64,000 nt of DNA from Streptomyces antarcticus (lineage in GTDB: Bacteria > Actinomycetota > Actinomycetes > Streptomycetales > Streptomycetaceae). Numbering within the stretch: the first letter of the stretch is position 1; the number at the start of each line of letters is the position of its first letter. Made by a program: the position numbers and the translations under genes. This document shows, piece by piece, positions 23,744 to 30,632 of this stretch. Location: contig NZ_JAPNLM010000001.1 in assembly GCF_026627255.1 (NCBI RefSeq), forward strand, positions 745,600 to 809,599, written 5' to 3'. The notes below the pieces were generated by a model. The model made no database searches. It was not told the DNA's origin and saw only the letters and a program-made list of their open reading frames with translations.

Positions 23744-25828
23744 TCACACGCCCCGGGAGGCCTCCGCCCCCACCTGCCCGGCGAGTTCGTCCGGATCCGT
23801 CGTGGGCCGCGCGCAGACGAAGTGCCGGCACACGTACGCGGTGGGCAGGCCCCCCACGAGCGTGCGCTCTGCCAGGAGGGGGAACTCCCCGCCGCTGCCG
23901 TCCGCCGCGCGCGGCATGCCCGTCGCGACGACCGCCCCGGGAGCCGTCCCCAGCAACGCGACCCGGTGCAGCTCCGCCAGCGCCGGGTCCTCCGGGCGGC
24001 CGACCACCGCCACCTCGCGCGGCCCGTCGAGCAGCGCCTCGGCCACCGCCAGCCCGTGCCCGATGAAGCGCGGGGCGCGCGGACCGAGCGCGTGCACCAC
24101 ACCGAGCGCCCTCTCGGCCGCGGTCCGGTGCGCCTGCGAACCGGTGTGCGCGGCGTACGAGAGCAACGCCCCGGCGGCGGCCGTCCAGCCGGACGGCGCC
24201 GCCGTGTCGGTGGGGTCCTGCGGCCGCCTGATCAGCTGCTCCGCGTCGTGCGCGGTGTCGTACAGCGACCCGTCCTCTGCGGCGAACAGGTCCAGCACCA
24301 GGTCGACGAGGAAGCCGGCGAACTCCAGCCACACCCCCTCACCGGTCACCGAGGCCAGCGCGAGGAACCCCTCCGCGACGTCGCCGTAGTCCTCCAGCAC
24401 CCCCGCGTTCACGCCGACGCGGCCGTCCTTGCTGGTCCGCGCCAGCCGGGCCCGGCCCGAGGGCACGTCGAAGTGGACCCGTACCAGCAGGTCGGCGGCC
24501 TCCGTCGCCCGTTCCACCAGGTCGGGCCGGTCGAAGTAGGCCCCGCACTCGGCGAGCGCGGCGACGGCCAGCCCGTTCCAGGCCGCCACGACCTTGTCGT
24601 CCCGCCCGGGCGCCGGCCGCGCCGCCCGCGCGGCGAGCAGCCGCTCCCGGATCGAGGCGATCCGCCCGGCCTCCGCCGCCGGACCGTCCTGGGGCAGCTG
24701 GAGCACGGAGGCGCCGTGCTCGAAGGTGCCCTCCTCGGTCACCCCGAAGTACGCGGCGGCCAGGTCCCCGTCGTCCTCCCCCAGCACGTCCCGCAACTGG
24801 GCCGGGGTCCACGCGTAGTACGCCCCCTCGACGTGCGCGCCGGTCAGCGGGTCCGCGCTGTCGGCGTCGAGCGCGGAGGCGAAACCGCCGTGCTCGGTAC
24901 GCAGCTCCCGGACCATGAAGTCGGCGGTCTCCAGGGCGACCCGCCGCGCGAGGTCGGACCCGGTGGCCCGCCACAGGTGCGCGTACACCCGGCAGAGCAG
25001 CGCGTTGTCGTACAGCATCTTCTCGAAGTGCGGTACCAAAGACCCATCTGGTTTGGCGCGCAGCACGTAGCGGTGGAACCCGCCTCCCACCTGGTCGAAC
25101 AGGCTCGACCGCACCATGGCCTCGCAGGCACCTTCCGCCATCTCCCTGGCACCTTCGGAACCGGTCCGGGCATGGTGGCGGAGGAGGAACTCGACGACCA
25201 TGCTCGGCGGGAACTTCGTATCGCCTCCGCCGAACCACCCGCTCGCCGGGTCATAGTCCCGGGTCAGCTGGAGGAGGGCGTTGCCCTGGGACTCGGCGGT
25301 CGGCAGGCCCTCGCCCCCTGCTCCGAGTGCACGGCCGGCGAGGTCACGGGTGATCTTCTGCGCGACCTCGGCCACCTCCTCACGTCGGCCGACCCACGCG
25401 GTCCGTACACCTTCGAGCACCTGCATGAACGAGCCCATCCCGTGTCGGGGCTCGGGCGGGAAATAGGTACCGAAGTAGAAGGGCTCCCCCTCGGCCGTCA
25501 TGAAGACGGACATCGGCCAGCCCCCTTGCCCTGTCGCCGCCTGAACCGCCTCCATGTAGACGGCGTCGACGTCCGGCCGCTCCTCCCGGTCCACCTTGAT
25601 GTTCACGAAGTGCTCGTTCATGTAGGCGGCCGTCAACTCGTCCTCGAAGGACTCGTGGGCCATGACATGACACCAGTGGCAAGAGCTATAGCCAACGCTC
25701 AGGAACACGGGTACCCCGCGCCGCCGGGCTTCTTCGAACGCCTCAGCCTCCCAGGGCCGCCAGTCGACGGGGTTGTCCGCGTGCTGGAGGAGGTACGGGG
25801 ACGTGGCCTGCGCAAGTCGGTTGGACAT
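23744..25828 (-). CDS. Thioredoxin-domain protein (DUF255, YyaL/SSP411-like), chimeric full-length copy
   Basis: The 694-residue product has an N-terminal thioredoxin-fold DUF255 domain with the motif SSCHWCHVM (about residues 46-54). A six-hairpin alpha/alpha-barrel follows (about 200-690). The biochemical role is not established. The gene is a chimera. Bases below about 25020 are the chromosomal 3' part, while 25034-25828 (about 265 codons) arrived with the integrative element and differ at many codons from the original 5' part stranded at 30606-31415. The joint falls in the codons for HFEK, and the frame is intact, so a full-length protein is expected. Confidence 0.92.
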   Translation of the reverse strand: MSNRLAQATSPYLLQHADNPVDWRPWEAEAFEEARRRGVPVFLSVGYSSCHWCHVMAHESFEDELTAAYMNEHFVNIKVDREERPDVDAVYMEAVQAATGQGGWPMSVFMTAEGEPFYFGTYFPPEPRHGMGSFMQVLEGVRTAWVGRREEVAEVAQKITRDLAGRALGAGGEGLPTAESQGNALLQLTRDYDPASGWFGGGDTKFPPSMVVEFLLRHHARTGSEGAREMAEGACEAMVRSSLFDQVGGGFHRYVLRAKPDGSLVPHFEKMLYDNALLCRVYAHLWRATGSDLARRVALETADFMVRELRTEHGGFASALDADSADPLTGAHVEGAYYAWTPAQLRDVLGEDDGDLAAAYFGVTEEGTFEHGASVLQLPQDGPAAEAGRIASIRERLLAARAARPAPGRDDKVVAAWNGLAVAALAECGAYFDRPDLVERATEAADLLVRVHFDVPSGRARLARTSKDGRVGVNAGVLEDYGDVAEGFLALASVTGEGVWLEFAGFLVDLVLDLFAAEDGSLYDTAHDAEQLIRRPQDPTDTAAPSGWTAAAGALLSYAAHTGSQAHRTAAERALGVVHALGPRAPRFIGHGLAVAEALLDGPREVAVVGRPEDPALAELHRVALLGTAPGAVVATGMPRAADGSGGEFPLLAERTLVGGLPTAYVCRHFVCARPTTDPDELAGQVGAEASRGV
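25020..25048. other. Left attachment site of the integrative element
   Basis: The 14-bp shared core is followed on the element side by an arm ending CCAAAGACCCATC (25036-25048). On the chromosomal side the DUF255 coding sequence continues to 23744. The arm is the mirror half of the one at 30598-30618. Confidence 0.8.
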
Positions 25829-25947
25829 CCCCCCATCCTTGCGCACCCGCCTCCGCCCCGCCCAAGCGCCACGGGGGCAGCACGTGGGCGGGGCTCTGGA
25901 GGGGGACGCGTCGGCAGGCCCCCTGGACTCACCCCGGAGGCCGCGCC

Positions 25948-26220
25948 TTAGCGCCCCGATGTGTCCGATGCCCAGGAGCGCCCAGGCTCCGCAGTGGGTT
26001 CGTTTTGTCCGGCGGACAACGAGGGGTACTGGCACTTCGGGACTCCCGTACCCGGTAGCACTACTTCGAGCATGTGCCGAAGCGTCCGGACGCTGACACC
26101 GACCCGTAAGGCGATCTCCTCATGCGTCTCACCGTCCGCCAAGCGCTGCCGGAGCTTCAGTTCATGGCTCCCGATGTACTGCCGCGCTTCCCGCGCCTCG
26201 CGCGCACTGAGCCTGGTCAT
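25948..26220 (-). CDS. Small helix-turn-helix protein (90 aa)
   Basis: A helix-turn-helix is visible at about residues 18-52 (HELKLRQRLADGETHEEIALRVGVSVRTLRHM cut in two helices). It is followed by a Pro/Ser-rich tail without obvious fold. It is probably a DNA-binding regulator of the element. Its start lies within the 3' end of the upstream 91-codon frame (59-base overlap), so the two cannot both be independent of each other's codons. Confidence 0.6.
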   Translation of the reverse strand: MTRLSAREAREARQYIGSHELKLRQRLADGETHEEIALRVGVSVRTLRHMLEVVLPGTGVPKCQYPSLSAGQNEPTAEPGRSWASDTSGR

Positions 26221-30562: not shown

Positions 30563-30597
30563 AACCCCCTCTGCTCTCAGGGAAAGGGTACGGAAAT

Positions 30598-30632
30598 GAT
30601 GGACCTTAGACCGCTACTTTCTCGAAGTGCGG
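30598..30632. other. Right attachment site of the integrative element
   Basis: An element arm beginning GATGGACCTTAGACC (30598-30612) leads into the 14-bp core at 30619-30632. The chromosomal DUF255 5' sequence continues from there. Joining this arm to that at 25034-25048 restores a roughly 50-bp imperfect palindrome, as expected for a serine-integrase attP. Confidence 0.8.

Follow-up and report, generated by a model that had tools for sequence, protein, structure and literature searches.

The 64,000 nt stretch of Streptomyces antarcticus DNA analysed here, referred to as the window (assembly GCF_026627255.1, contig NZ_JAPNLM010000001.1, positions 745,600 to 809,599 of the forward strand), harbours an integrative element within a gene of the DUF255 (Thioredox_DsbH) family. 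The element measures 5,599 bp from core to core, lies between two copies of CCGCACTTCGAGAA inside the gene and encodes a predicted large serine integrase. An original prediction, made from the letters alone, held that it splits its target, supplies a replacement 5' end and thereby regenerates the gene. The attachment (att) sites and the parts of the gene are arranged as follows.

23747..25828, minus strand: chimeric DUF255 (Thioredox_DsbH) gene, element 5' part joined to host 3' part; 694 codons, stop-free
25034..25828, minus strand: element-supplied 5' module; 265 codons, comprising the thioredoxin-fold domain and about 100 more residues
25829..25888, minus strand: leader travelling with the module; about 60 bp conserved, an AAGGAT motif directly before the start, putative promoter
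23747..25033, minus strand: host 3' part of the DUF255 gene, starting at PHFEK
25020..25033: attR core CCGCACTTCGAGAA, 14 bp; predicted crossover dinucleotide 25023-25024
25034..25056: attP left half-site within attR, translated as the module's final codons (DGSLV in the window, GGPLV in many relatives)
30619..30632: attL core CCGCACTTCGAGAA, 14 bp; predicted crossover 30622-30623
30583..30618: attP right half-site within attL (AGTAGCGGTCTAAGGTCCAT...)
30606..31415, minus strand: displaced host 5' remnant; 269 aa, C-terminal HFEKVAV and a stop
28901..30562, minus strand: large serine integrase; 553 aa, Pfam Resolvase (PF00239) and Recombinase (PF07508) domains

This layout bears out what had been described: a 5.6 kb serine-integrase element, an intact chimera with the module in frame at the predicted coordinates, and the original 5' third of the gene left behind as the remnant. 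The element has 14 bp cores at both ends, and its integrase has Resolvase and Recombinase domains. The att site lies approximately 38% into the gene, at about codon 266, where the codons for PHFEK are found. Module and remnant are identical at 596 of 795 nt and at 201 of 265 amino acids, and the PF03190 profile gave two strong matches in the host genome, to the chimera and the remnant, plus one weak match below the cut-off. Structures of DUF255 relatives have been solved (7tkv, 3ira); an AlphaFold model of the chimera, built from 11 sequences, had a mean predicted local distance difference test (pLDDT) score of 61.6, with residues 241-270 below 50, and was not used. It is very probable, on the comparisons described below, that the element-borne 5' module regenerates the DUF255 gene that the element enters, and the chimeric gene is likely to have been kept working.

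A scan of genome contigs for the integrase returned 30 loci, with L012 and L027 belonging to one genome and L014 and L025 to another. When distinct genomes were counted in which an integrase at least 65% identical lies beside DUF255, 18 came from the scan and were joined by the window and G269 (locus L135), making 20, and the DUF255 gene possesses an element-type 5' part in 18 of these. Two of the loci, L002 and L013, were counted as element-type only after a whole-genome search, the integrase and gene of L002 being on different contigs and L013 corresponding to a 15 kb element, L136. This recurrence, found by the search that had been suggested for the same integrase with a DUF255 5' module, means that the layout in the window is not a chance one. 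Among the named integrase-bearing genomes L009 is an Actinomadura, the others being Streptomyces; G269 is taken to belong to the latter genus, like the window. Core-to-core length across 13 loci ranges from 2,155 bp (L028, in which the integrase is degraded) to 15,018 bp (L136), and the elements of L005, L007 and L009, at 2,621-2,626 bp, consist of an open integrase and the module, separated by about 100 bp. Thirty loci were fetched from a second, overlapping draw (245 genomes of the order), which apparently includes several genomes of the integrase scan; the element-type junction is present in the 15 that match the module best, and the host-type junction in the remaining 15. The integrase was found within the 1.5 kb flank at nine of these element-type loci, the window's own lies further off, and five have none in the flank.

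The histories of the two parts of the gene were compared through a tree of the 5' part (codons 55-251, 68 rows), from which codons 1-54 and the attP arm were excluded, and a tree of the 3' part (61 rows), with second copies of the same locus and broken, start-less remnants (L006, L008, L027 and L136) dropped. In the 5' tree the 24 element-type parts are separated by a single branch, with support of 96/94, from the 37 host-type parts and seven open remnants, the remnants falling among the host-type rows. The 3' parts of the same 24 genes require 17 changes, and their forming a single clade is rejected by the approximately unbiased test (p-AU 3.2e-5); this conflict between the trees indicates mosaicism at the att site. 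Mantel tests on 14 loci associated integrase distance with module distance (r 0.70, p 0.0005; without L136, 13 loci, r 0.52, p 0.001), with lower values for integrase and 3' part (r 0.40, p 0.056; r 0.17, p 0.24 without L136) and a weak association of module and 3' part (r 0.45, p 0.014; r 0.30, p 0.026 without L136). The comparison shows that the modules make up one lineage, inherited together with the integrase, and that the 3' parts track the host species.

All 24 modules are open and fused in frame, with lengths of 263-266 codons (789-798 nt up to the core). The median pairwise ratio of nonsynonymous to synonymous substitution rates (dN/dS), calculated with a custom Nei-Gojobori script, was 0.145 for modules (276 pairs), 0.164 for host-type parts (665 pairs) and 0.199 for open remnants (21 pairs). 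By this measure the modules are under purifying selection, and the still-open remnants show no clear relaxation. Both ends can be seen at 15 sites; all of these have an open module, whereas the remnant is open at six (the window, L001, L003, L004, L011 and L135) and broken or gone at nine (L005, L006, L007, L008, L009, L010, L015, L028 and L136; Fisher p 0.0007), a pattern of module retention and decay of the displaced copy. Upstream of the integrase, attL traces scored higher than the best of 200 shuffles in four of the five loci tested (L007, L010, L015 and L020, not L017). The suggestion that the element bears a replacement 5' module that regenerates its target is therefore supported, as the module travels with the integrase, yields conflicting trees across the att site and is retained as the displaced copy is lost. 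Disruption of DUF255 is presumably costly, judging from its conservation, matches being present in 244 of 246 Streptomyces genomes.

Junction sequences distinguish the different states of the gene. The host-type junction is typically GGGFARYSVDREWVVPHFEK followed by MLYDN, while the element type reads QVGGGFHRYVL....GGPLVPHFEK followed by MLYDN; displaced remnants are host-type through PHFEK and then mostly continue with VAV, a stop and GPS. Element-free host-type genes read ...VVPHFEK followed by MLYDN, or close to it, so the empty sites join HFEK to MLYDN as had been anticipated. Two host-type loci, L139 and L092, keep the Uma2 and HlyIII genes that flank the window element, both beside the gene; in several more, one of these two genes lies within the short flank. 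Two or three DUF255 matches were found in 21 of the 244 genomes; ten of these were viewed as fetched loci and the other 11 were examined together. Six of the 11 have one 5' part, three have an extra 1-55 aa fragment of the codon-54 class described below, and three, one of them shared with that fragment group, have a single 5' part divided into two pieces that overlap or adjoin. The latter arrangement, in G019, G146 and G035 (codons 3-54, then on), is what an assembly error, or a frameshift in the vicinity of codon 54, would produce.

The presence of two similar 5' copies on either side of an integrase might also arise through tandem duplication of the 5' end of the gene by the host, with the integrase gene landing between the copies. 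Such an origin is hard to reconcile with the window module grouping with the modules of other species and not with its own host's remnant, a pairing of the two being rejected (p-AU 1.1e-4), with the 14 bp core at both ends and the conserved attP arms, or with the recurrence of the arrangement in other species and in Actinomadura. Furthermore, none of the 21 multi-match genomes has two full-length 5' copies and no integrase (0/21), the tandem copies that the original prediction had named as a sign of simple duplication. Given the conflicting trees, the att repeats and the survey of all 21 genomes, duplication was rejected as scarcely credible.

Two other readings accept the element and differ as to its purpose. 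The module could be an imported allele that alters DUF255 activity to the benefit of the element, for example against phages or in favour of its persistence, compensation not being its main role; a quarter of its residues do differ from the displaced copy, 201 of 265 being common to both, and the element-type VL....GGPLV stands in place of SVDREWV. However, the differences on the junction side coincide with the attP arm and so are explained by site recognition, and the median dN/dS of 0.145 indicates purifying selection on the module, leaving this an unlikely main role. Skin elements break a gene and excise on cue, and the position of the integrase inside a split gene would likewise suit a regulated gene-integrity switch; yet integration leaves the gene intact as it is, and the remnants broken or gone at nine of 15 sites could not rebuild it upon excision, making a switch very improbable.

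A number of observations weigh against regeneration by an element-borne module. In two of the 20 genomes (L017 and L020) the integrase is degraded and the 5' part next to it is host-type, from which it follows that the module can be lost or replaced, apparently by recombination. Of 392 Streptomyces genomes, 12 contained a strict form of the junction pattern. Six of these have this kind of integrase at the site (a degraded piece in G296); the other six show no relative of the integrase in about 8 kb upstream. Three modules of the latter six (L130-L132), basal in the tree, are either old scars or native kin of the module's donor; no native gene closer to the module was found among the listed matches in the 245 genomes of the order. 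The 64% identical integrase of L093 has no module beside it, on a 5,428 bp contig that starts at the integrase, so that the upstream side is missing, and the module search of a phage collection found no DUF255 module in Streptomyces phage Rowa, such an integrase thus existing without one. As regards the trees and statistics, the host rows L063-L092 are the best matches to the window host and not a random sample, L136 is on a long branch of the 5' tree, and both the Mantel tests and pairwise dN/dS ignore shared ancestry.

The attP site deduced from the element sides of attR and attL, as a consensus by eye, is GTGGACCTTTGGTACCGCACTTC-GA-GAAAGTAGCGGTCTAAGGTCCAT. Across 13 elements, the complementarity of its arms peaks at the GA in TTCGAGAA with 12.5 of 22, the next highest of 24 centres reaching 9.0; attB has no clear complementarity peak. 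Serine integrases use an asymmetric central dinucleotide, and a quasi-palindromic attP was found around a putative 2 bp crossover shared with attB. The left arm doubles as the last codons of the module, read GGPLVPHFEK in many relatives, and the Leu codon in it is TTG in 16 of the 18 modules whose genomes bear the integrase, as against 39 of 419 elsewhere in module bodies. The two exceptions have CTG (L010) and a Trp codon (L136), beside which the degraded integrase of L028 may be noted. Integrase-free modules have TTG in two of six cases (Fisher p 0.018 against the 16 of 18); it seems that the integrase constrains the arm, and that the arm shifts gradually to host codons once the integrase has gone. 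The roughly 60 bp before the module start are conserved across elements with different cargo: conservation in successive 20 bp blocks is 0.45, 0.58 and 0.74, compared with 0.34, 0.35 and 0.47 in host-type genes, and AGGAT occurs no more than 20 bp from the start in 22 of 24 modules, 23 of 37 host-type genes and six of seven remnants. This leader may be a promoter, perhaps for a leaderless transcript.

These features suggest a mechanism in which the predicted serine integrase is likely to have recombined the attP of the element with the PHFEK codons of the host at about codon 266, an insertion that would fuse the 265-codon module in frame to the host 3' part. With the left half-site of attP serving as the module's last codons, integration would rebuild the frame automatically, and the module would bring its own promoter in the conserved leader. 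The displaced host 5' end would be free to decay, after which excision could not restore the gene and the element would be locked in. It is likely that the integrase broke DUF255 first and that the 5' module was then captured in one descendant line, and a path from gene-breaking phage, via gene-rebuilding element, to permanent part of a gene is plausible.

The remaining predicted genes of the element and the host genes flanking it, which also adjoin some empty sites, are listed here.

27748..28626, plus strand: cargo, HTH_31/DUF5753 regulator (Pfam)
27248..27763, plus strand: cargo, DUF6879 protein (Pfam)
27022..27276, plus strand: cargo, 84 aa hypothetical protein with relatives in several other elements
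26434..26841, minus strand: cargo, HATPase_c_2 protein (Pfam)
26162..26437, minus strand: cargo, 91 aa hypothetical protein, common to L001
25948..26220, minus strand: cargo, 90 aa hypothetical protein, common to L001
31749..32315, plus strand: flanking host gene, Uma2
22843..23622, plus strand: flanking host gene, HlyIII

Read along the minus strand the order is Uma2 (divergent), DUF255 remnant, integrase, the six small predicted cargo genes, chimeric DUF255 and HlyIII. Neither an FtsK/SpoIIIE translocase or other transfer gene nor any phage structural gene was found among the nine window proteins scanned with Pfam.

Integrase relatives are also found away from the gene. Ten loci of the scan (L016, L018, L019, L021-L024, L026, L029 and L030), with integrases 23-58% identical (L029 partial), have no DUF255 part in the fetched stretch, and neither have the IMG/VR relatives L093-L103, which are 50-64% identical. 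In L019, L021, L022 and L026 (42-55% identical) a similar upstream coding end, ...ALAWES, was seen by eye, suggesting another protein-gene target. Self-comparison with blastn gave no direct repeat of E < 1e-8 around the integrase-scan loci; among a further set of loci, with 1.5 kb flanks, L056 and L058 gave short repeats. The integrase had no match in plasmids, and every match of the module to plasmids was below 60% identity. A search of IMG/VR for a free circular form found no exact match of one attP pattern, and the pair of DUF255 relatives detected in it, with identities of 44-48%, are ordinary genes reading through PHFEKMLYDN, with L162 cut by a contig end.

A second segment of the same gene was noticed to behave as what is probably another mobile 5' module, of 54 codons. 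Several genomes have upstream fragments of codons 1-54 ending in TGCCACTGGTGYCA followed by GTGAACT, or close to it; the corresponding pattern matched 14 of 295 genomes, 11 of which have a DUF255 N-terminal fragment there, and three further genomes (G029, G035 and G038) have a 1-55 or 1-56 fragment. Twelve genes or remnants of this class share a leader, and most also start MNRLAG. In a tree of codons 1-51 (153 columns, rough support) the class requires four changes and a single clade is not rejected (p 0.077), whereas in the tree of codons 55-251 it requires 11 and a single clade is rejected (p 5e-55). Loci of this kind are L137 (2356-2511, reversed), L131, L133, L155-L160, L166, L167 and L011 (2682 and 8042). 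The islands between fragment and gene can hold defence-type genes, such as PDC-M55A/B/C in L156 and N6_Mtase with Methylase_S in L155; no integrase was recognised among the scanned proteins, which are part of those present. In L161 (4465-5986, genome G080) an IS110-family transposase adjoins the codon-54 junction and a 1-56 fragment nearer the element type is interrupted. This transposase was rejected as a general mover of the segment, as relatives were found only in the genome of L161 among the fetched loci. In L011 (2682-16687) three displaced DUF255 5' pieces are stacked upstream of the current gene, indicating serial replacement at two sites. The one match from the module search of the phage collection is a 52-residue fragment in MT839133, a human-gut scaffold labelled as phage (L164, 4383-4538). 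The scaffold stops within DUF255, after residue 52 and so close to the codon-54 site, perhaps at a chance contig end.

A broader proposal, for which the chances appear about even, is that the 5' third of this near-universal Streptomyces gene is a mobile allele. Elements with translated half-sites would overwrite it in one step, the displaced copy would rot and excision would become useless; the smallest forms, of about 2.6 kb with integrase and module only, would be locked in and the module would outlive the integrase, while at least two unrelated module classes, at codon ~266 and codon 54, would compete and stack serially, as in L011. If true, integrative elements would have here a general way of turning into permanent parts of the genes they enter. 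Target regeneration can span a whole domain, here 265 codons, beyond a few terminal codons, and an attachment half-site can be translated into part of a protein. Repeated site-specific replacement of part of a gene, across genera, would be a concrete cause of conflicting 5' and 3' trees in an ordinary gene. It becomes testable how a gene-breaking element, comparable to Rowa, evolves into a gene-repairing one, and whether repair becomes irreversible after the displaced copy has decayed. The integrase and the conserved attB (PHFEK-MLYDN) may also provide a useful new Streptomyces landing site.

Neither this DUF255 site nor a 5' module of 265 codons was found described in the literature searched, most subscription papers lying outside the search; the main text of one article listing Streptomyces integrase vectors contains neither 'thioredoxin' nor 'DUF255' (PMC12924846). 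Genomic islands are described as reconstituting, in many cases, the genes they enter (PMC12884075). For instance, the integrative mobilizable element (IME) IMEVchUSA3 supplies dusA with a new promoter and alters the first 35 residues of the protein (61% identical), with expression shown by a lacZ fusion (PMC8409611). The same kind of 5' regeneration is attributed to SXT in prfC (Hochhut and Waldor 1999, as cited in PMC8409611), and functional prfC is restored by the integrative and conjugative elements of the SXT/R391 family (PMC12210918, PMC6541609).

Streptomyces phage Rowa (NC_047906) has a serine integrase 62% identical to that of the window. Its core CCCCATTTTGAGAAG (PHFEK), with inverted arms, lies just upstream of int at the 3' end of gp58, where it is read HGPLIPHFEK and a stop; no Pfam family matched gp58 significantly. 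The phage appears to use this DUF255 site as its target although it carries no module; if so, the gene in a lysogen is expected to be split and not rebuilt. Through the gp58 locus (L104, 5705-5914), lysogeny could create a fusion of gp58 with the 3' part of the host DUF255 gene. A translocase of the FtsK/SpoIIIE type is a feature of actinomycete integrative and conjugative elements; the relative L136, from S. humicola, encodes an FtsK/SpoIIIE protein, the only one among the relatives scanned, together with a GntR regulator, while the window element has no transfer gene found.

Like SXT in prfC and the IMEs in dusA, the DUF255 element inserts site-specifically into a protein gene with att repeats and provides new 5' coding sequence in frame with the host 3' part (24 of 24). 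SXT/R391 differ in being large conjugative elements, and the stretch that SXT replaces in prfC is short. In dusA the altered sequence amounts to 35 residues, tens of codons and not the 263-266 seen here, where a whole domain is supplied, a serine integrase is predicted to act and the att site lies well inside the gene. The DUF255 element is thus a much larger variant of the known 5'-regenerating elements represented by SXT in prfC and the IMEs in dusA.

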